Assembly (NCBI RefSeq): GCF_947305105.1
Contig: NZ_CAMZCS010000012.1
Span: forward strand, 1 to 64,000
Source of the DNA: an uncultured Fibrobacter sp.
GTDB lineage: Bacteria > Fibrobacterota > Fibrobacteria > Fibrobacterales > Fibrobacteraceae
Length of the DNA stretch: 64,000 nt
Direction: 5' to 3'
The notes below the pieces were generated by a model. The model was not told the DNA's origin. It did not search any database and saw only the letters and a program-made list of their open reading frames with translations. A program made the translations under genes and the position numbers. The stretch's first letter is position 1; each line of letters begins with the position of its first letter. Below, piece by piece: positions 2,794 to 13,753 of this stretch.

Positions 2794-4551
2794 ATGACAC
2801 TGGATGAACTCAAAAAACTGATTTCTAAAGACGAGACGAAGAACGTTGAGTTGAAGAAATCTACCGGTGAACTTCGTGAAGGTATGCATACGGCATGTGC
2901 CTTCTTGAATTCCGATGGCGGAGTTCTCGTTTTCGGTGTCACACCCTCCTTGAATATTGTCGGGCAGATTGTTTCAGAATCTACCCGCCGCGATATCGCG
3001 CAGGCTTTGGCGGGGATCGAACCCGCAGTTACGCCCGTCATTGAATATGTAGATATTCCCGGCAAGCCGAACCTCCAGGTAATCGTGCTGAGGTTCAATC
3101 CGTGGGTCTATGGGCAAAAACCATACACATTCCACGGGAAGCCGTATTATAGGTTAGAAAGCGTCACCAAGGCTATGCCCAGGGACATGTTTGATGAACG
3201 GATTCGCATTAACATGCCCCACCAGTATTCGTGGGAAATGAGGACTGCCGAAGGATATAGCATAAAGGATCTTAACGCTGGCACGATTCGCGGGGTTGTG
3301 CGCCTCGGTGTCGAAGAAAAACGAATACCCGTGGGGTCGCTCAACGAGCCGATTAAAGTAATACTGAAAAAATGGAACCTGTTGGATGGCGACAATGTGA
3401 GGAACGCTGCGGTGTTTCTTTTTTCAAAAAGGTTCTCGTTTGAATATTTACTTCGGATGGCCCGCTTCCGGGGGACCGACAAGAACTACTTTATTGATAA
3501 TCAACAGGCCCACGGCAACTTTTTTGATTTGTTGGATGCGGGCATGGGTTTCTTCTTTAAGCACCTGTCCCTAAGCGGTGAAATCAAGGGACTCAAGAGG
3601 GAAGAACACCTCGATGTTCCAGTGGCTGCCTTGCGCGAGGCTCTAATAAATGCCCTTTGCCATAGGGATTACGACATTCACCAGTGCTCTATCGGCATCG
3701 CCATTTACGATGACCGCATAGAAATTGAAAGCCCCGGTTTATTGCCACATGAACTGACTCCGAAAACGATCAAACGGTCGCACCAGTCGTTCCCACGAAA
3801 CGAAGTTCTTGCGAACGTCTTATACCAAACTACATACTTGGAAAAATGGGGCTCGGGTATCAAGCGCATAATGGATGCTTGCAGGGCGGAAAATTCACCC
3901 CAACCCTTCTGGAGCGAGCAGACGGGGTATACGGTCGTGACCTTCCCGCTGAACAAGTTAAATGGCAAAATTGTTACCCAAAATGCACCTCAAAATGATA
4001 GTCAAAGTGATAGCCAAAATGATAGTCAAAAGCGGGCGTTCCGTATAAAAGAACTTGTTGTTCAAAGCAACAGTGTTTCTGTAAAAACCATAGCAGAAAC
4101 ACTGGAATTAAGCGAAATTACGGTTCGTCGCTATCTGAAGAAAATGGGCTATGTTTGGAAAGGTGCGCCTAAAAAGGGATATTGGTTTGATACCCAAAAT
4201 GTATCTCAAAATGATACCCAAAGTGATAGTCAAAATGATGCCCTAAATGATACTCAAAACGAAAAGAATGTATCAAGAACCGAAAAGGTTTTGCAGGTTG
4301 TTAGCGTGAATTCTATGATATCAAAAGATGCTTTGGCGACTATGTTCGGCGTAACAAAATTGACAATCCTGCGAGACCTCCAAAAGTTAGGCTTTGTATG
4401 GGAAGGTGCATCGAAGAATGGGCACTGGGTGCGCGAGAAAGGACGTTTTGTTGACGCCAACAAGACATCGGTTAAGAAAGTTACTAACAGCACGAAAAAG
4501 AAAAAAGATACTGAAACGCTAGATTTGTTCGGAGGCGGAGATGGAGAATAG
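2794..4551 (+). CDS. AlbA_2/Schlafen-type ATP-binding regulator with duplicated winged-helix tails
   Basis: 585 aa. The N-terminus (about 1-130) is an AlbA_2 (divergent AAA_4/Schlafen) domain with the E-x-K-x-S opening (NVELKKSTGELREG) and FLNSDGGVLVFGV. A GHKL-like ATPase-type C domain follows (HRDYD, LPHELTPKTIK, EKWGSGIKRIMDACR, about 270-370). The tail has two successive winged-helix modules (about 420-465 and 495-545), each preceded by a low-complexity linker of Q-N-D-S/T repeats. The two modules share VWKGAPKKGYW / VWEGASKNGHW, so they arose by internal duplication. Proteins of this type are often linked to type I R-M operons (known as M-linked or R-linked ORFs) and are generally viewed as DNA-binding regulators; the target is unknown. 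A weak AAGG lies before the ATG; the stop overlaps the next gene by 11 nt. Confidence 0.8.
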   Translation: MTLDELKKLISKDETKNVELKKSTGELREGMHTACAFLNSDGGVLVFGVTPSLNIVGQIVSESTRRDIAQALAGIEPAVTPVIEYVDIPGKPNLQVIVLRFNPWVYGQKPYTFHGKPYYRLESVTKAMPRDMFDERIRINMPHQYSWEMRTAEGYSIKDLNAGTIRGVVRLGVEEKRIPVGSLNEPIKVILKKWNLLDGDNVRNAAVFLFSKRFSFEYLLRMARFRGTDKNYFIDNQQAHGNFFDLLDAGMGFFFKHLSLSGEIKGLKREEHLDVPVAALREALINALCHRDYDIHQCSIGIAIYDDRIEIESPGLLPHELTPKTIKRSHQSFPRNEVLANVLYQTTYLEKWGSGIKRIMDACRAENSPQPFWSEQTGYTVVTFPLNKLNGKIVTQNAPQNDSQSDSQNDSQKRAFRIKELVVQSNSVSVKTIAETLELSEITVRRYLKKMGYVWKGAPKKGYWFDTQNVSQNDTQSDSQNDALNDTQNEKNVSRTEKVLQVVSVNSMISKDALATMFGVTKLTILRDLQKLGFVWEGASKNGHWVREKGRFVDANKTSVKKVTNSTKKKKDTETLDLFGGGDGE

Positions 4552-6688
4552 CAACAAGCACATTGAAGAATTCCTGGACTACTACCTGAACAAAGAGCAG
4601 TCTCCCGATTATGCTGTGTTGATTACAGGCTGTTGGGGCTCTGGCAAGACATATTTTATTAGGCATTTTTTAGAAAAACAGGGTGCTGTAAGAAAAAATT
4701 TTGTCAAGAAAATCAATTGGTTGACGGGCTTTAAAAAATATACGGTTGTTTATGTTAGCCTGTTTGGAGTAAAAACACGTGAAGATATCAATAAAAAAAT
4801 AGAACGTATTTTTCGCCCAAAGATCAACTCAAAAAAACTTGAGTACTTGCCGGATGCAATTTCATTGGTAAGTAATTTGGCAGGGATTGCTGTAGGAACA
4901 ATTGTGGCTACGACAGCGACTTTCGCTACAGGCGGTTCCGCCGCTCCTTTAGCTATTCCGACTGGTGTTGCAACGGGAAAGACTGTTGGGGATTCTTTAA
5001 AGTTCTTTTCTAGTAGGTTTTTAGAGAATATAAAGGTAAATGAAAAAGAGTATAAGCGCTTGGTCGTAGTTTTTGATGATTTAGAACGCGCGGATATGAA
5101 ACCATGCGAATTGTTTGGATATTTAAATGAATATATTGAGCATTTGCATGTCCCATGCATTTTACTCGCCGACAAAGATAAGTGGGAAGAAGCTCAATCA
5201 CAACCGGATGATAAGAAGACTCTGCAAAATTTATCTAGTACACAAGAAAAAGTTATTGGGAAAATTTTTCAAATACAGACTTCTGTAGAGGATGTCATTA
5301 ACGCTTGGCTGTCTCCTGAATGTGGGTGCTTAGATGTAAATGACGATGTGAAGAAAATTTGGTGGGAAAATCGAGAATGTATTTATGATTTATTTGCCTG
5401 TTTTGACAATGCAAAACAAAAATATCTTGAGAAAAAAGACGATTTCTCGTTTAATGATTCTGAACAGAAAAAATTTGATCAAGAACAGATGAAGGAATAT
5501 GTACAGAAAATGCCGAACCGAAATTATCGGGCATTGAGACAAACTATAAAAGACTTTAATCATCTGTGTGCCTATTTCTGTCCTCAATTAGGAGATCTCA
5601 TTTTTTCAAAAAAATCAAAAGAAAGAGGCTTTGATAAATATTTTATTCGATATTTCTTTGCAATGCGCTATGGTTGCTGGCTTGGATTGTTTGATCCCAA
5701 CCAAATAGAAGTATCTCGTTATTTTTTTGTCGGATTGAAATTTGGTGAAAGAGAATATCCTGCTGAAAAAAATTCGCTAACTGCATGGGATTGTTTTTCT
5801 AATGTATGTTATAAAATGGATAAGATTGAAAACTTTCCTATGCAAAAATGGCTTGTTGATTCTTTTTTTGATAGGGAGAAAATAGTTGCTGAAATAAATT
5901 CGTCAGCTTGGTTTGGCGGAAGAGATGCTTATTTAATTCGCCAATTGTATCATTGGTGGAGTTTGAGCGATAAAGAAGCTCAAGAAGCCTATGTTGCGGT
6001 AAAAAACGCACTAAAAAATGGCACTTTGAATGATTCTGCCTCATTGATGGTTGTGTTTGTTGTGCTATACACAATATCTGAAGACTATAGCTCAAATAAC
6101 AAACAGTCCGTAGTGAAAGAAATGAACGAATATTTGGACAAATATTCGGAAAGTATTGAATTTGGCGAAATTCTTAGTGTTGAAGATATAAAACAAAATT
6201 ACAGTCCATCAGACGATTGCATTGAAAAGTTAATAGCGTTTAGAGAAAGATTGATAAAGATTTGTAGTGAAAGAGAGAACCCCTTTCAGGAAGAAAAAGA
6301 ACAATTCTATAGGAACCTGATATCTGATGATGTATATGAATTTGATTCTGCGTGTAGCATAATCCGGAATATATCGTATAAGGTCACAGAATTTCAATGG
6401 AGCATGGTTGATGCTGAAAAATTTGTTGAGGGTTTCTCAAAACTTGAGCGATATAAAAAAGGCGAAATTCTCAAAATAATGAGACATCGTTATTTTAATG
6501 TGCCTAGTGGCTATGATATGGAAAAAGAAAAAGTATTTTTAGCCAATTTGAAGGACGCTTGTTTAAATCGAATTAATCAAAAAGGCGAAATCCCTTTGCC
6601 GAGTACTTTTGCGTTAAAACAGATGGTCAAGAAAGTAGAAGAAATAGAAAATATTCAAGGCTTATTCGAAAAAGAGGAGAAGGGCTAA
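4541..6688 (+). CDS. KAP-family P-loop NTPase
   Basis: 715 aa. A Walker A motif (GCWGSGKT, residues 30-37) opens the protein and a Walker B-like VVVFDDLERAD lies near residue 180, as in KAP NTPases. Between them is a hydrophobic, Gly/Ala-rich stretch (about 110-150), matching the membrane insertion typical of the family; the protein may be membrane-attached. The C-terminal two thirds are helical and not recognised. KAP NTPases are found in many defence loci and phage-exclusion proteins such as PifA (family knowledge). It overlaps the previous gene by 11 nt and the next hsdS by 1 nt. The gene is markedly AT-rich compared with hsdM and hsdR, suggesting separate acquisition. Its role here is not known; a sensor or abortive-infection effector is inference. 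Confidence 0.8.
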   Translation: MENSNKHIEEFLDYYLNKEQSPDYAVLITGCWGSGKTYFIRHFLEKQGAVRKNFVKKINWLTGFKKYTVVYVSLFGVKTREDINKKIERIFRPKINSKKLEYLPDAISLVSNLAGIAVGTIVATTATFATGGSAAPLAIPTGVATGKTVGDSLKFFSSRFLENIKVNEKEYKRLVVVFDDLERADMKPCELFGYLNEYIEHLHVPCILLADKDKWEEAQSQPDDKKTLQNLSSTQEKVIGKIFQIQTSVEDVINAWLSPECGCLDVNDDVKKIWWENRECIYDLFACFDNAKQKYLEKKDDFSFNDSEQKKFDQEQMKEYVQKMPNRNYRALRQTIKDFNHLCAYFCPQLGDLIFSKKSKERGFDKYFIRYFFAMRYGCWLGLFDPNQIEVSRYFFVGLKFGEREYPAEKNSLTAWDCFSNVCYKMDKIENFPMQKWLVDSFFDREKIVAEINSSAWFGGRDAYLIRQLYHWWSLSDKEAQEAYVAVKNALKNGTLNDSASLMVVFVVLYTISEDYSSNNKQSVVKEMNEYLDKYSESIEFGEILSVEDIKQNYSPSDDCIEKLIAFRERLIKICSERENPFQEEKEQFYRNLISDDVYEFDSACSIIRNISYKVTEFQWSMVDAEKFVEGFSKLERYKKGEILKIMRHRYFNVPSGYDMEKEKVFLANLKDACLNRINQKGEIPLPSTFALKQMVKKVEEIENIQGLFEKEEKG

Positions 6689-7809
6689 TGATGCTGCCTA
6701 ATGGATGGAAAAAAGTGAAGCTAGGAGATATTTTGACGGCTGTTGATTATGGCACGGCTGCAAAATCTGATGCTATTGGAAAATACCCTGTCCTTAGAAT
6801 GGGCAATCTTGAAAATGGCTATTTGGTATGGGATGATCTTGTATATTCCTCATCAGAAGAAGAATACGCTAAATATGAACTGAAAAAGGGCGATATTCTT
6901 TTTAATAGAACTAATTCACGAGATAAAGTTGGAAAGACTTCAATTTATCGTGGTGAACGTCCTTCCATTTTTGCGGGTTATTTAATTCGTTTGAAGGTAA
7001 ATAACGAATGCGATCCCTATTATGTGAATTATTGTATGAATTCAAAGAGATTCGCTGAATTCTGTAAATCAGTAAGAACAGATGCTATTGGACAGTCAAA
7101 TATTAATGCCCAAGTGTTGCAAACATACGATTTTTCGTTGCCACCGGTTGAAGAACAGAAGAAGATTGCGGCGACGCTTTCGGTCTGGGACTCCGCCATC
7201 GAAAAAATGGAAAAGCTCATCGAAGCGAAGGAAAATGAGCTTAACATCGTTTTAAGACAGAACTTACTTGAAAAAGGGATTGCGTTAAAATGGAAAGAAA
7301 TCCCTTTGACAGAAATATTAAAGAGTGTAACGCCACCATCTAAAATCCATCAAGATTCTTATTTGAATAGTGGTAAATATCCAATAGTTGACCAATCTAA
7401 GGATTTAATTGCAGGGTGGACAAATGATGAATCTAGCGTGCTGAAAATAAACAGACCTTTAATAATTTTTGGAGATCACACTTGTGCGTTGAAAATAATG
7501 CATATGCCGTTTGCGCAAGGTGCGGACGGAATAAAAATATTATCTGCGAAAGATGGTTATGATCCCACTTATATATATTATGCAATAAAAGCGAATCCTG
7601 TTATTCCGGAAGGGTATAAAAGACATTTCTCTGCGTTAATGCTAAAAAGCATTCTTTGTCCTAGTCTTGAAGAGCAAAAGAAACATGCAGTCTATTTTAA
7701 ATCGCTTGATGAAGAAATTTCTCTTCTCAAACAGCAACTCGAAAACTACAAAAAGCAGAAACAAGGCTTGATGCAAAAACTCCTCACCGGACAATGGCGA
7801 GTGAAATAA
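6688..7809 (+). CDS. hsdS: Type I restriction specificity subunit, full-size (two TRDs)
   Basis: 373 aa with two TRD-helix units. The first TRD opens with WKKVKLGDIL and ends in PPVEEQKKIAATLSVWDSAI plus a helix; the second opens with WKEIPLTEIL and ends in CPSLEEQKKHAVYF, then a helix closing in LMQKLLTGQWRVK. That repeated layout is the HsdS hallmark. It directs the HsdM/HsdR complex to a bipartite DNA site. The TRD-coding DNA is AT-rich while the conserved helix regions (around 7150-7240 and 7730-7809) are GC-balanced, which points to exchange of TRDs in a stable frame. ATG at 6688 overlaps the previous stop (TAATG); an ATG at 6691 is an alternative. Confidence 0.9.
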   Translation: MMLPNGWKKVKLGDILTAVDYGTAAKSDAIGKYPVLRMGNLENGYLVWDDLVYSSSEEEYAKYELKKGDILFNRTNSRDKVGKTSIYRGERPSIFAGYLIRLKVNNECDPYYVNYCMNSKRFAEFCKSVRTDAIGQSNINAQVLQTYDFSLPPVEEQKKIAATLSVWDSAIEKMEKLIEAKENELNIVLRQNLLEKGIALKWKEIPLTEILKSVTPPSKIHQDSYLNSGKYPIVDQSKDLIAGWTNDESSVLKINRPLIIFGDHTCALKIMHMPFAQGADGIKILSAKDGYDPTYIYYAIKANPVIPEGYKRHFSALMLKSILCPSLEEQKKHAVYFKSLDEEISLLKQQLENYKKQKQGLMQKLLTGQWRVK

Positions 7810-7822
7810 GGAGAGGAATACT

Positions 7823-9808
7823 ATGGCAAATGAAGATTTAATAAAAAAAATAAAAGATTATATTTCAAAATTCGACAATGAATATAATCAAATAAAAGTT
7901 TGGTTAGCTTCTATTTTAGAACCTAATAAAGAAACGATTGTTTCTTGGATGAAAAATTTTAGATCCGATTTTTTGAATCCCGAAAAAGAAATTGATGATT
8001 TGGCATTACGTTTAAATCAAATGAATGGTATTCATGATCAAATTTTAGCCATCAATGTTGAAATGGATGAGAAATGTAATTGGTCAAAAAATTATTTGAA
8101 TTTGCTCTATAATACAATATCCCGATGTTCTTTATCATTTTTGATTCAATATCTTTTCGATGCAAATTTATTAAAAAATGCTTTAAATTATCCAAGGATA
8201 AAATATGATATTGTGAATAAAATTCTCCGTTTGCGTGATGAAAGTTTGGGGATTGATTTTAAGGAAAAAGAACATGCTATTAGCTATTTGGATAATTTTT
8301 CAATATTTAGATATTTGGACAAAAATTTTGTAATTGTTGGCGCAAATGGTTCTGGGAAAAGTTCATTTTCACGTAGAACAAGACAAGTTTTAGATAGTAG
8401 TGTGATAATCATATCTTCGCAAAAAGTCTTTTTATATAGGCCAATAGAAAATCTACCTTTTGGATATAAATGGCGGAACGAATTAAAAAATTATCAAGGA
8501 AGAGATAAACTACATAAGGGAGAAGATCGTGACGATCAAATTGTAAACGAACTAACTGTTGTGACAAATGCCCTTTTTGAAGAAGAAAATCAATTTGCTC
8601 ATGAGTTTTATCATGGAGAATCAACGGAGCGGAAAGAATCAACTCTTGAGCGAGTCGTCGCATTATGGGGAAAAATACTGAAACATCGAAGCTTAAAAAC
8701 GAAAGATGGATATATTTACGTTCTAACAAAAGATGGAACTGAATATCCATTTATGCAATTAAGCGATGGTGAAAAAGCCGTATTTTATTATATCGCTTAT
8801 ATTTTATCTGCAAAAGAAAACAGCTATATCATTGTTGACGAGCCGGAGAATCATTTGCACTTGGCTTTGATTGCAAAATTATGGGACGAATTAGAAAAAG
8901 CAAGACCTGATTGTCAGTTTATATATCTGACGCATAATCTTGAATTTGCCGCATCACGTAATAATGCTGAAAAAATATGGATGAAGCGATTCATCGCTCC
9001 TGACAAATGGGAAATGGAAAAATTACCAACGGATAAAAATATACCTGAAATCCTGTATATGGAACTTCTCGGTAGCCGTAAACCGATTTTGTTCTGTGAG
9101 GGGACAAAAGCAAGTTTGGATTACAAACTATATACAAGGCTATTCCCGAATTATACGGTTATCCCAGTTGATGGACATATTCAAGTGATAAGTTACACCA
9201 AGGCGTTTAATAGTTCCAACGATGTACATCATAATAATGCGATTGGAATAATTGATGGTGATTTTCATAAAGATGAGCAAAAAGAAGCGTGGAAAGAAGA
9301 TAAAATATATTGCTTGGATGTACAAGAGGTAGAGAATATTTTGTGCGATGAGGATTTGTTGACCGCTGCTGTGGATTTTTTCCATGCAGATGAAGATGCT
9401 GTAGCTAAAATAAAAGAACGGTTCTTTATAAATCTAGAGCAGGAAATAGATAATCAATGTGTTGAATTTGCTGAGCAGTCAATAAATAATCAGTTTAAAG
9501 AAAATATGTTGAAAAGGAACAAATGTATAGACGAATTAAAGTCCTCTTTAAGGAATCTAAGTGAGCGATTAGATAGAAAAATTGATATCCTTTTTACTGA
9601 GCAACAAAAACGTTTGCAAAATATTCTTGTTAAAAAAGACTATGAAGAAGGCGTTAGACGATATAACAATAAGAAGTTAATATCTATTGTTTCCTTATTT
9701 ATTGAAAAAGAATACACTAAGCGCATATTCAAGTTGTTGGATACTAATACTGATGTTTTAAACATCCTTAGGGATAAGTATTTTGCTGATATTCCGCAGA
9801 CTCTCTAG
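7823..9808 (+). CDS. ABC-type ATPase fused to DUF4435 (TOPRIM): PARIS-like AriA-AriB fusion
   Basis: 661 aa. The N-terminal half is an ABC/AAA_21-type ATPase: Walker A GANGSGKS (173-180), signature LSDGEKA (313-319), Walker B IIVDEPENHLH (336-346) and H-loop THN (370-372). The C-terminal half fits DUF4435, a TOPRIM-like fold: FCEGTKASLD with E426 and GIIDGDF with D478 and D480. This pairing is that of PARIS, in which the AriA ATPase holds the AriB DUF4435 nuclease until a phage anti-restriction protein is sensed; fused versions are known. That knowledge is of the family; activity here is inferred. It sits between hsdS and hsdR, so a trigger set off when a phage blocks this very R-M system would make sense. 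SD GGAGAGG precedes the ATG. The DNA is strongly AT-rich. Alternatives are OLD-like or other ATPase-TOPRIM nucleases. Confidence 0.75.
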   Translation: MANEDLIKKIKDYISKFDNEYNQIKVWLASILEPNKETIVSWMKNFRSDFLNPEKEIDDLALRLNQMNGIHDQILAINVEMDEKCNWSKNYLNLLYNTISRCSLSFLIQYLFDANLLKNALNYPRIKYDIVNKILRLRDESLGIDFKEKEHAISYLDNFSIFRYLDKNFVIVGANGSGKSSFSRRTRQVLDSSVIIISSQKVFLYRPIENLPFGYKWRNELKNYQGRDKLHKGEDRDDQIVNELTVVTNALFEEENQFAHEFYHGESTERKESTLERVVALWGKILKHRSLKTKDGYIYVLTKDGTEYPFMQLSDGEKAVFYYIAYILSAKENSYIIVDEPENHLHLALIAKLWDELEKARPDCQFIYLTHNLEFAASRNNAEKIWMKRFIAPDKWEMEKLPTDKNIPEILYMELLGSRKPILFCEGTKASLDYKLYTRLFPNYTVIPVDGHIQVISYTKAFNSSNDVHHNNAIGIIDGDFHKDEQKEAWKEDKIYCLDVQEVENILCDEDLLTAAVDFFHADEDAVAKIKERFFINLEQEIDNQCVEFAEQSINNQFKENMLKRNKCIDELKSSLRNLSERLDRKIDILFTEQQKRLQNILVKKDYEEGVRRYNNKKLISIVSLFIEKEYTKRIFKLLDTNTDVLNILRDKYFADIPQTL

Positions 9809-9831: not shown

Positions 9832-12800
9832 ATGCAACAACAGCCTGATTATAGAGAGATTCCGACTTCGCAGATTCCGGCGATGCGGTTGTTGGCGAAT
9901 CTCGGGTTCAAGCCGCTTACGCCCGAAGAGGTGATGCTGGAGCGCAAGGGTAAACTTGCCAATGTGTTGCTCGAAGATATTCTGCTCTCGCAGTTGCGCA
10001 AGTTGAATTCGTTTACGCACAAGGGAGTCCGTCGCGACTTTAGCGAAGAGAATTTGCGTAACGCCATCCTGAAGCTCAAGAACATGCAGTACGATGGCTT
10101 GGTGCGTACGAATGCAAAGATATATGACCTGTTAACGCTCCCGCAATCCGAAGAAGAATCTGTCGAGGGCGACAAGCGCAGTTACGACATTCGCTATATC
10201 GACTGGCAGGAACCGGCGAACAATGTGTTCCATATGGTTGCCGAATTCGATGTGGAGTGTTCGAAATCCAATGCCCGTGTTATCCCTGATATCGTGCTTT
10301 TTGTGAACGGAATCCCGTTTGCTGTCATCGAGAACAAGTCGCCCGAAGAAGGAATCAAGCAGGGCATTTCCCAGATGATTCGCAACCAGGGCGATGAATA
10401 TATTCCGGGGTTGTTTGTTTTTTGCCAAACACTTTTGTCGGTGAGCATGAACGCTGCGACTTATTCCACCGTGGGGACTCCCGAAAAGTTCTGGAACCTT
10501 TGGCATGAACTTGAAATCAAGGATAAGGAAATCGAAGCTGCGATTAACAAAAAGGTCTCTGCTGAAGATGAAGATAGGATTTTCTCGGTGCCGAAACTGG
10601 CGCCATTCCGCAAGAATAATCCGCAGACAAAGCGCGTGGTGACGGAACAGGACAGGTTGATTTATTGCCTGTGCAAGCCGGAACGCTTGCTCGAAATCGC
10701 CTATCGCTTTACCCTGTTCGATGAGGGGATAAAGAAGATTGCCCGCTACCAACAGTTCTTTGTGGTCCATTCGGCGTTAAAACGTATTCGGAATATTGAT
10801 AACGAAAATAAGCGCAAGGGCGGTCTGGTGTGGCATACGCAGGGGTCGGGCAAGTCACTTTCGATGGTGATGCTTGCTCGCGGAATCGTGCTGGATTCGA
10901 CATATGATCCCGATTGTAATATCAAGAATCCGCGAGTTGTACTAGTTACCGACCGCAAGGAATTGGATTCGCAAATATGCGACACCTTCAAAAATTGTGG
11001 TGCGGAGGTCATCAAGGCTACATCGGGTGAGAATTTGCTCAACCTTATGGCGTCGGACAATTCTGCCGTGATAACGACCGTTATCAACAAGTTTGACAAG
11101 GCGCTGAACAAACGCCAATATGTTGAAAAATCAAATAACATCTTTTTGCTAGTGGACGAAGCGCACCGTACGCAATACAAGAGCTTGCATGCGCGTATGA
11201 AGCAGATGCTCCCGAATGCCTGCTATATCGGCTTTACGGGCACGCCGCTGATGAAGAAGGAAAAGAACAGTTTCGGCAAGTTCGGCGGGATGCTCAAGCC
11301 GAGTTACACTATCCAGCAGGCGAACGAAGATGGCGCCGTGGTGCCTTTGCTTTACGAGGGTCGCCACGCAGAACTCAAGCAAGACAAGGCTGCAATAGAC
11401 CTTTGGTTTGACCGTTTTACAGCGGGGCTGAATGAGAAGCAGAAGGCCGACCTTAAGAAGAAATATGCACGGGCCGAGATGCTGAACAAGGCAGAACGCG
11501 TCGTGTATATGCGTGCGTTTGATATCAGCGAGCATTTCCGTACAAACTGGCAGGGGACTCCGTTCAAGGCACAACTTGTCGCACCGAGCAAGGAAACGGC
11601 TATTCTGTACCATGAATTCTTGGATGAAATTGGTTTCGTGAGTTCTGAAGTTGTCATTTCGGGCCCCGATGAGCGCGAAGGCTATTCGGAAGTGGGCGAA
11701 GAACCGACTAGCCGAGTGACGAAATTCTGGACAAAGATGATGGATCGCTATGGCGACGAGGATTCGTATAATAAGTCGATTATTGATGGTTTCAAGGGCC
11801 CAGGTAAGCCGGAAATCCTGATTGTCTGTGACAAGTTGCTGACGGGTTTTGATGCCGAACGCAACACCGTTCTGTACCTTTGCCGCACGCTCAAGGAACA
11901 TACGCTTTTGCAGGCGATTGCCCGCGTGAACCGCTTGTTCGAGGAAAACGGCAAAAAGAAGGATTTCGGCTATATCGTAGACTACGCCAACGTGCGCGAC
12001 AACCTGGATACGGCCCTTGTGATGTACAAGGCGCTGGAAGGCTTTGACCCAGAAGATTTGGAAGGCTTGCTGACCGATGTGTCGGAACAAGTGGACAAGT
12101 TGCCGCAACTGCGTTCTAATCTGTGGGATGTTTTCAAGGGAGTCAAGAACAAGGCCGACCCCGAACAGATGGAGCGCCACCTGGCCGATGAAAAACGCCG
12201 TAACGATTTCTACAAGGCGCTGCGTGATTTTGGAAAGTGCCTAAGTATCGCAATGTCATCGCAGAAGTTCCTAGAAAAGACCCCAGCCGAAGATATGACG
12301 CGGCTCCGCAGGGAATTCAAGATGTTCTCGGATATGCGCGTGTCTGTAAAGCACCGCTATGCCGACGATGTGGATTACAGTGAGTATGAGCCGAAAATCA
12401 AGAAGTTGCTCGATACGCACATCCAGTCGGATAACGTGGTGCAAACTGTGGCTCCCGTGGATATTTTGAGTAAAGGATTCAGCTCTGTTCACGATAAGGT
12501 TGCCGGTTACGATACCCGCAGCAAGGCTTCCAGTGCCGATGCCATTGCCCATGCACTTAAGAAGACTATTACCGAGAAAATGGAAGAAGATCCCGCTTTT
12601 TACACTAAGTTCTCGAAGATGATTCAAGATGTCATCGATAGTTTCCAGACGGGAAAGATGTCGGAAGATGAGTATTTCTCTAAGGTGAAAGGATTGGAGG
12701 AAAATTTCAAAAGCAAGAAACGCGAAGACGTTCCGGCAGAAATCAGTGAAAACGAAGATGCTGCCGCATATTATGGCGTCGCGTTGACAGCATTCTTGTA

Positions 12801-13056
12801 TGGAAAAAAGTGCGAAGCGTCAAAAGCCAAACAACTTGCTGTTGAAACAGCCTTATTTGTTGTTGAATCATTGAAAAAACATCACAAGGTGCAATTCTGG
12901 AACGATCAGGACGCACAAAACAGGGTGCGAGACGATTTGGATACATTGTTATTCGATAATATTTGTGTCCGGGAGCGCTTTGGCTGGTCGAATGCGGACA
13001 TTGATTCTCTAGAAGAGAAAATTATGAATGTGGCAAGGCGGCGTTCGCATGAATGA
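9832..13056 (+). CDS. hsdR: Type I restriction endonuclease subunit R
   Basis: 1074 aa, the usual HsdR length. The N-terminal PD-(D/E)XK nuclease shows PDIVLFVNG and FAVIENKSPEEG (about residues 148-170). A superfamily 2 motor follows: Walker A QGSGKSLSM (about 340), Walker B VDEAH (about 442-446), motif III GFTGTPL (about 467) and motif VI-like LLQAIARVNR. The rest is helical. HsdR translocates DNA with ATP and cleaves at a distance when the target is unmethylated. An AAGGAAA Shine-Dalgarno lies before the ATG. Its 3' end overlaps the metallopeptidase gene. GC-balanced, like hsdM, so the R and M genes look older than the AT-rich genes inserted between them. Confidence 0.95.
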   Translation: MQQQPDYREIPTSQIPAMRLLANLGFKPLTPEEVMLERKGKLANVLLEDILLSQLRKLNSFTHKGVRRDFSEENLRNAILKLKNMQYDGLVRTNAKIYDLLTLPQSEEESVEGDKRSYDIRYIDWQEPANNVFHMVAEFDVECSKSNARVIPDIVLFVNGIPFAVIENKSPEEGIKQGISQMIRNQGDEYIPGLFVFCQTLLSVSMNAATYSTVGTPEKFWNLWHELEIKDKEIEAAINKKVSAEDEDRIFSVPKLAPFRKNNPQTKRVVTEQDRLIYCLCKPERLLEIAYRFTLFDEGIKKIARYQQFFVVHSALKRIRNIDNENKRKGGLVWHTQGSGKSLSMVMLARGIVLDSTYDPDCNIKNPRVVLVTDRKELDSQICDTFKNCGAEVIKATSGENLLNLMASDNSAVITTVINKFDKALNKRQYVEKSNNIFLLVDEAHRTQYKSLHARMKQMLPNACYIGFTGTPLMKKEKNSFGKFGGMLKPSYTIQQANEDGAVVPLLYEGRHAELKQDKAAIDLWFDRFTAGLNEKQKADLKKKYARAEMLNKAERVVYMRAFDISEHFRTNWQGTPFKAQLVAPSKETAILYHEFLDEIGFVSSEVVISGPDEREGYSEVGEEPTSRVTKFWTKMMDRYGDEDSYNKSIIDGFKGPGKPEILIVCDKLLTGFDAERNTVLYLCRTLKEHTLLQAIARVNRLFEENGKKKDFGYIVDYANVRDNLDTALVMYKALEGFDPEDLEGLLTDVSEQVDKLPQLRSNLWDVFKGVKNKADPEQMERHLADEKRRNDFYKALRDFGKCLSIAMSSQKFLEKTPAEDMTRLRREFKMFSDMRVSVKHRYADDVDYSEYEPKIKKLLDTHIQSDNVVQTVAPVDILSKGFSSVHDKVAGYDTRSKASSADAIAHALKKTITEKMEEDPAFYTKFSKMIQDVIDSFQTGKMSEDEYFSKVKGLEENFKSKKREDVPAEISENEDAAAYYGVALTAFLYGKKCEASKAKQLAVETALFVVESLKKHHKVQFWNDQDAQNRVRDDLDTLLFDNICVRERFGWSNADIDSLEEKIMNVARRRSHE

Positions 13057-13753
13057 GTTGGGCGTTGTTAAATATGGAGACCGAGAGATTGCGTACGCGG
13101 TTGAATTCTGCCGCCGCAAGACTCTGGAAATCTCTGTAATGCCGGATAGTGCTGTGCAGATACGGGCTCCGCAGGGGGCGAAGCTCGAAGCAATCGCGCA
13201 GAAGGTGCAGAAAAAGGCTCCGTGGATTGTTGAAAAGCAGGACTGGTTTGCGAAATTTCCTAAAGCGCCTCCTCCAAGGCAATATCTTGGAGGCGAGACG
13301 CACTTGTATTTGGGACGCCGTTATCGATTAAAAATCGAAAAAGGTAAAGAACGCTTGGTGAAAATCGATGGCGGGTTCATTAGGGTTGTTTCTGCGGATG
13401 TTCGCCCCGCAATCGTGAAGAAAATTCTTGACGAATGGTTGCGTGAACGTGCCAAGGTGCAGTTCGAGAATGTTTTTTTGGCTTGTATGGCTCGTTTTTC
13501 GCATTCTTCTACGTCTCCTCGCCTGCAAATCCGCGACATGAAAACCCGCTGGGGTTCGCTCTCTAAAGGCGGTATATTGACCTTAAATACAAAGCTGATT
13601 GCCGCTCCGAAGGAATGTATCGAGTATGTTGTGGTGCATGAATTGTGTCACCTGAAATACCCGAACCACGATAAAAAGTTCTATCGTCTGCTGGAAACCC
13701 GTATGCCCGACTGGGAAAAACGGAAACAGAAGCTGGAAAACTTGCAGGGGTAA
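13049..13753 (+). CDS. YgjP-type zinc metallopeptidase (M48-like, DUF45)
   Basis: 234 aa from the preferred start. The C-terminal VVHELCHLKYPNHDKKFY carries HExxH (zinc ligands and catalytic Glu) plus a downstream His, and RDMKTRWGS a little upstream is the other family mark. Genes of this family commonly follow hsdR in type I loci; their substrate is not established. The ATG at 13049 overlaps the hsdR stop by 8 nt and has AAGGCGG upstream; an in-frame ATG at 13028 would add seven residues. It ends 4 nt before recQ. Confidence 0.8.
   Translation: MNELGVVKYGDREIAYAVEFCRRKTLEISVMPDSAVQIRAPQGAKLEAIAQKVQKKAPWIVEKQDWFAKFPKAPPPRQYLGGETHLYLGRRYRLKIEKGKERLVKIDGGFIRVVSADVRPAIVKKILDEWLRERAKVQFENVFLACMARFSHSSTSPRLQIRDMKTRWGSLSKGGILTLNTKLIAAPKECIEYVVVHELCHLKYPNHDKKFYRLLETRMPDWEKRKQKLENLQG

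Follow-up and report, generated by a model that had tools for sequence, protein, structure and literature searches.

The window analysed here, a 64,000-nucleotide stretch of DNA from an uncultured Fibrobacter species, contains an apparent type I restriction-modification (R-M) operon in which a gene for a fused AriA-AriB protein (ariAB) lies between hsdS and hsdR. The genes of this operon are as follows.

599-1219, + strand: half-length HsdS-like protein of 206 aa with one target-recognition domain (Pfam Methylase_S, 1.3e-05; PADLOC Specificity_I)
1216-2784, + strand: hsdM, type I N6-adenine methyltransferase (Pfam N6_Mtase, 1.3e-98, and HsdM_N)
2794-4551, + strand: AlbA/Schlafen-type gene that includes HTH modules, cargo of the hsdM-hsdS interval (Pfam SLFN_AlbA_2, HATPase_c_4)
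4541-6688, + strand: NTPase of the KAP family, also cargo of the hsdM-hsdS interval (Pfam KAP_NTPase, 3.7e-15; PADLOC PDC-S49, 5.5e-71)
6688-7809, + strand: hsdS, with two target-recognition domains and, at the 3' end, one conserved border of a slot (Pfam Methylase_S, 1.1e-25)
7823-9808, + strand: fused AriA-AriB (PARIS-type) gene, ATG start, 661 aa (PADLOC AriAB PDLC02982, 3.1e-119)
9832-13056, + strand: hsdR, type I restriction subunit, with the other slot border at the 5' end (Pfam HSDR_N, SWI2_SNF2, T1RH-like_C)
13028-13753, + strand: YgjP-like metallopeptidase gene (Pfam YgjP-like, 9.3e-61)

Neighbouring genes in the operon overlap or are 9-23 nt apart, with ariAB beginning 13 nt after hsdS and ending 23 nt before hsdR. 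Purine-rich sequences resembling ribosome-binding sites are found upstream of both ariAB and hsdR, and a promoter-like site (564-592) lies just 5' of the half-length hsdS. The simplest reading of this layout would be a single transcription unit. A preliminary description of this DNA had placed ariAB between hsdS and hsdR in one such unit, and the gaps and shared strand agree with that placement. The ygjP-like gene also follows hsdR in related operons, which likewise carry, besides the full hsdS, a half-length HsdS gene ahead of hsdM.

Within the AriAB protein, the following parts and motifs can be distinguished.

7823-8317, + strand, residues 1-165: N-terminal helical extension, without a family match
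8339-8365, + strand, residues 173-181: Walker A, GANGSGKSS (invariant alignment columns)
residues 250-375: AAA_21 domain (Pfam 1.2e-17, above the curated cut-off)
8759-8776, + strand, residues 313-318: ABC signature, LSDGEK (homologue alignments)
8828-8848, + strand, residues 336-342: Walker B, IIVDEPE (homologue alignments)
8933-8935, + strand: switch His371 (homologue alignments)
9077-9682, + strand, residues 419-620: DUF4435 (AriB-type TOPRIM) domain (Pfam PF14491, 3.1e-14; AriB PDLC02983, 4.3e-12; model pLDDT 90.5)
9098-9100, + strand: Glu426 (FCEG), predicted TOPRIM catalytic glutamate (invariant; also in split AriBs)
9254-9262, + strand, residues 478-480: DGD, the TOPRIM DxD (invariant, as are its equivalents in split AriBs)
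9326-9337, + strand, residues 502-505: EVEN, the counterpart of (I)EN(fL) in split AriB

The PADLOC model AriAB, which is specific for fused PARIS, covers residues 168-656 with model positions 47-559 of 570, and the separate AriA and AriB models each match their own half of the protein. The DUF4435 match scores 53.7 bits, where the cut-off is 27. Walker A, signature, Walker B, His371 and the TOPRIM residues are invariant or nearly so in two alignments of ten homologues each, and Glu426, D478xD480 and E502/E504 are unchanged in 10/10 homologues of two different sets. The Glu, the DxD and the (I)EN motif are likewise kept in split AriB proteins, and a profile comparison of fused and split C-terminal domains aligns these catalytic motifs at E 3.9e-04, but with a weak probability of 35%. 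Lysines K60 and K64 of AriB are reported to hold the tRNA loop. Neither PF13166 (AAA_13) nor PF13707 (RloB) gave a Pfam match in AriAB, and PF13166 gave none genome-wide at E<=1e-30; GajA profiles in PADLOC reach 1.2e-07, far under the score of the AriAB model. Placement of the protein as a PARIS-type AriA-AriB fusion is thus confirmed at the level of sequence models, and the earlier account of an ABC-type ATPase with all its motifs joined to a DUF4435/TOPRIM domain with Glu and DxD is borne out by AAA_21, DUF4435, the AriAB model and the invariant motifs alike. Fusions of AAA_21 and DUF4435 were already counted as PARIS by Rousset et al. 2022 (PMC9122126), and the window protein shares with this single-gene form the ABC/OLD ATPase-DUF4435 TOPRIM chain, all motifs and a long PADLOC match. 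It differs from stand-alone PARIS fusions in its position within a type I R-M operon and in an extra N-terminal helical region of about 165 aa that most of them lack.

The full-length structure model is of moderate quality (pLDDT 70.7), and its N-terminal 165 residues are helical and poorly predicted. Modelled in isolation, the C-terminal domain gave a confident AlphaFold model (pLDDT 90.5) with the TOPRIM order of strands and helices, in which the Glu ends strand 1 and the DxD ends strand 3. Foldseek returned no significant PDB match for this domain, with AriB outside the top 50, and nothing significant among viral models, while the OLD TOPRIM domain (6njx) matched at E 0.53 only. Profile searches of PDB sequences found no solved AriB; AriA (8ux9, 8v45) was matched at E 2.2e-04 through the general ABC region, so this match is not specific. 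For the whole model, the best fold matches were PtuA-type ATPases and the ATPase-TOPRIM protein GajA of Gabija (532 columns, E 1.8e-05). Class 1 OLD proteins and GajA have the same single-chain ATPase-TOPRIM layout (PMC10568477), and AriAB could on these grounds be an OLD/Gabija-like nuclease cutting phage DNA and not tRNA. We consider this very improbable, as curated models assign the C-terminal domain to DUF4435, the family of the tRNase AriB (PMC12409363). Gabija pairs GajA with an adjacent GajB helicase; the neighbours of AriAB are hsdS and hsdR.

To place the locus in its phylum, 168 Fibrobacterota genomes were searched with the AriAB model and with DUF4435. The AriAB model matches 5 of these genomes, the window included, and all five fused genes lie at type I R-M loci, which represent at least three R-M lineages. 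In four of the five, ariAB is located between hsdS and hsdR (the window, L002/L008, L009 and L010), with a BRO-family gene separating it from hsdR in L009; in L011 it lies 3' of hsdR and a KAP fragment. DUF4435 is present in 11 Fibrobacterota genomes, six of the cases being unfused. One split ariA-ariB pair is found between hsdS and an AbiE module that is followed by hsdR (L031), and another lies between the mod and res genes of a type III R-M locus (L032:7113-15178), which also carries a PrrC/RloC-like AAA_13 gene. A further unfused case, accompanied by GmrSD, is close to a type III res gene (L033) and one adjoins GmrSD (L034), while L029 and L030 show no such R-M or GmrSD neighbour. The stand-alone ariA-ariB pair of L030 (9828-17940) is about 4 kb from an RloA/RloB-like pair (AAA_21 and PF13707). 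Overall, 6 of the 11 DUF4435 genes are within about 5 kb of hsdR, compared to 0.09 expected at random, a null that ignores defence-gene clustering and shared ancestry, so that the small P overstates the case. SMODS, taken as a neutral control, supplied three genes only, one of them beside hsdR, which is too few for a comparison. With at least four independent R-M contexts for DUF4435 genes in the phylum, recurrence of DUF4435 and AriAB at R-M loci far above chance is supported.

In orthologous and related Fibrobacter operons, the gap between hsdS and hsdR holds different genes from genome to genome: HEPN-like and AlbA genes in L045 and L048 (the label HEPN-like being a reading of the sequence, without a Pfam match), YhcG in L046, YhcG and RhuM in L049, an AAA_21-methyltransferase fusion in L047, the same kind of fusion with AlbA in L053, RhuM in L052, and nothing in L054. 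HsdS ends in ~25 residues that are almost unchanged in 10 of the 12 operons compared, and hsdR starts alike inside each R-M lineage. Since both borders are conserved in this manner, the cargo of the slot is likely to have been swapped by recombination between them. The fusion of an AAA_21 ATPase to a class I methyltransferase, about 630 aa long (L047:13335-15215; L053, reverse complement, 11827-13719), is an unusual combination and may be another guard-type protein.

Comparison of individual loci indicates that ariAB itself has been exchanged. The AriAB proteins of L009 and L010 are 89% identical, while the HsdR, HsdM and HsdS proteins beside them share only 42%, 59% and 32% identity; it follows that AriAB passes from one R-M lineage to another and is fitted to no single enzyme. 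Between the window and L002, dS is saturated over residues 1-418 of ariAB (about 1.6 upstream), with a drop to 0.18 in the tail. The 3' part is thus a recent recombination tract, and the apparent division into a variable front and a conserved back is partly the product of this tract. In the comparison of the window with L010, synonymous changes are at or close to saturation in all segments for which dS was computed (the TOPRIM segment has no value), and at the protein level the front changes fastest, with the C-terminal tail changing fast too.

These observations bear directly on the claim of the preliminary description that a sensor of anti-restriction is wired to the restriction system it would guard. 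That claim is not supported as worded: the same gap holds unrelated cargo, and near-identical AriABs are found beside unrelated HsdR and HsdM proteins. Because the slot accommodates many unrelated genes, position alone is no proof that AriAB guards the enzyme. Close spacing and co-transfer are observed; a dedicated guard of this particular R-M enzyme would be an inference.

The survey beyond Fibrobacterota covered plasmids, phages and viral contigs only. No type I or type III R-M genes were detected by tblastn near 16 fused AriAB loci (plasmids, an Oenococcus phage and viral contigs), with Fibrobacter proteins as queries, a choice by which very divergent R-M genes could be missed. A Paraburkholderia plasmid (L012:5357-9632) has a fused AriAB gene immediately after a split ATPase-DUF4435 pair. 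The 16 fused relatives with no detected R-M neighbour, together with the assortment of slot contents between conserved ends, down to none at all, would fit an alternative in which the slot is a mere recombination hotspot for defence genes and AriAB senses a phage feature unconnected to anti-restriction. We regard this as unlikely. The DUF4435 genes of the phylum also occur at type III R-M and GmrSD loci, beyond any one hotspot, and characterised PARIS does sense an anti-restriction protein (PMC9122126).

Starting from the protein and its motifs, its operon position, its recurrence at R-M loci and its exchange between unrelated R-M lineages, we think it probable that AriAB is a portable single-chain guard of the PARIS type, which occupies the hsdS-hsdR slot as cargo, is expressed together with the restriction enzyme and acts as a tRNase upon an anti-restriction trigger. 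In the E. coli system, Ocr is sensed by AriA, and AriB is the tRNA-cleaving partner (PMC9122126; PMC12409363; PMC12707154). Sensing of an Ocr-like protein by the Fibrobacter AriAB is a supposition carried over from that system. According to the proposed mechanism, the N-terminal part, comprising the extension and the OLD/ABC ATPase, would keep the C-terminal TOPRIM nuclease inactive until a phage anti-restriction protein is encountered; the activated nuclease would then cut host tRNA, and translation would stop before the phage multiplies. Activation would presumably occur by rearrangement inside the single chain, because release of free AriB, as in the split complex, is impossible in the same way when both parts form one chain. 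Co-transcription, trigger, tRNA target and growth arrest are the parts of this model that we infer. Points against the model are the lack of solved AriB among the Foldseek and PDB profile matches of the C-terminal domain, the low probability of the fused-split profile link, the many unrelated genes of the slot and a PARIS pair in Salmonella BREX that was insensitive to Ocr. AriAB would probably back up the neighbouring restriction system once a phage has disabled it, and its trigger is more likely to be the inhibitor made by the phage than the condition of any one HsdRMS complex, since the module is passed from one R-M lineage to another.

A precedent for such an arrangement is PrrC of the EcoprrI type IC R-M locus. 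PrrC is likewise an ABC-ATPase-tRNase chain whose gene is embedded in a type I R-M locus; it is kept silent by its R-M enzyme and acts when restriction is inhibited. By analogy, AriAB would be a counterpart of PrrC in position and probably in logic. The nucleases differ, however: that of PrrC is a HEPN anticodon nuclease silenced by its R-M partner, whereas that of AriAB is a TOPRIM domain exchanged between R-M lineages, and the AAA_13 and C-terminal HEPN domains of PrrC/RloC are absent from AriAB, whose C-terminus is DUF4435. An alternative modelled on this precedent is a latch in which AriAB would be bound and silenced by HsdRMS, and in which a disturbance such as inhibitor binding or subunit loss would free the nuclease. 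The N-terminal extension of 165 residues, present in 5/5 Fibrobacterota fused genes, is missing from most stand-alone fused AriABs and could be the docking part. The majority of the fused AriABs outside the phylum start some 10-45 residues before Walker A without a long extension, and shortened versions of it occur in L018 and L035. On the other hand, the extension is among the fastest-changing parts of AriAB, a partial version of it occurs in the Oenococcus phage homologue, which has no R-M genes nearby, and AriABs that are 89% identical accompany HsdR, HsdM and HsdS proteins too divergent for a pairing with one enzyme. A latch of this kind is quite unlikely, and less likely than the PARIS-type guard, because the module has been exchanged between lineages. 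Slightly more doubtful is a version in which AriAB would match PrrC with a TOPRIM nuclease: its extension would dock via features common to several R-M lineages, and the alarm would read the state of the complex instead of one particular phage inhibitor. If true, guards of the PARIS and PrrC types would have arrived by convergence at one location and one logic.

Several elements of this picture are known, namely the PARIS fusion, PARIS inside BREX, and guards inside type I R-M loci (PrrC, DarTG2 and the rlo genes). PARIS genes are embedded in BREX (Salmonella D23580, PMC11341690; PMC12839542), likewise in the operon of an Ocr-sensitive DNA-modification defence system, but as split ariA and ariB and in BREX, not type I R-M. 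The Salmonella pair did not respond to Ocr or an Ocr homologue, and no trigger was found for it (PMC11341690). In the RRDM island of EPEC, DarTG2 lies between hsdS and hsdR, a gap its authors call a potential recombination hotspot (PMC12255303); this is a toxic defence module in the same gap as AriAB, but a toxin-antitoxin pair and not an ATPase-TOPRIM protein. Type I R-M loci of Campylobacter contain inserted rloA/rloB and rloC genes, rloC encoding an ATPase-tRNase (PMC2928727, PMC2610378), and the nuclease families of RloB (PF13707) and RloC (AAA_13/HEPN) differ from the DUF4435 of AriAB. PrrC and PARIS have been grouped in a review as "RM guardian systems" (PMC12707154).

Among the openly available published papers covered by our search, none describes an AriAB fusion between hsdS and hsdR, although an earlier description may exist, and none reports an experiment on a fused AriAB. 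In those papers, the tie between PARIS and type I restriction is functional only, via Ocr; at the Fibrobacter loci the link is genetic, through a shared operon, and it recurs across several R-M lineages. The Fibrobacter operon therefore offers a natural, clonable unit for asking whether PARIS guards restriction as PrrC does, and the hsdS-hsdR gap is a place to seek further guard proteins, including the ATPase-methyltransferase fusion.

Between hsdM and hsdS there is a further cargo slot (window 2794-6688), occupied here by the AlbA/Schlafen-type and KAP NTPase genes and in other operons by a RecQ-like helicase with a phosphoribosyltransferase domain, a DprA-like protein, DUF3800 or KilA-N. The AlbA/Schlafen-type gene of the window contains two in-frame clusters of 12-nt repeats (3959-4035 and 4187-4263), which encode Q-N-D-S/T-rich linkers beside its HTH modules.
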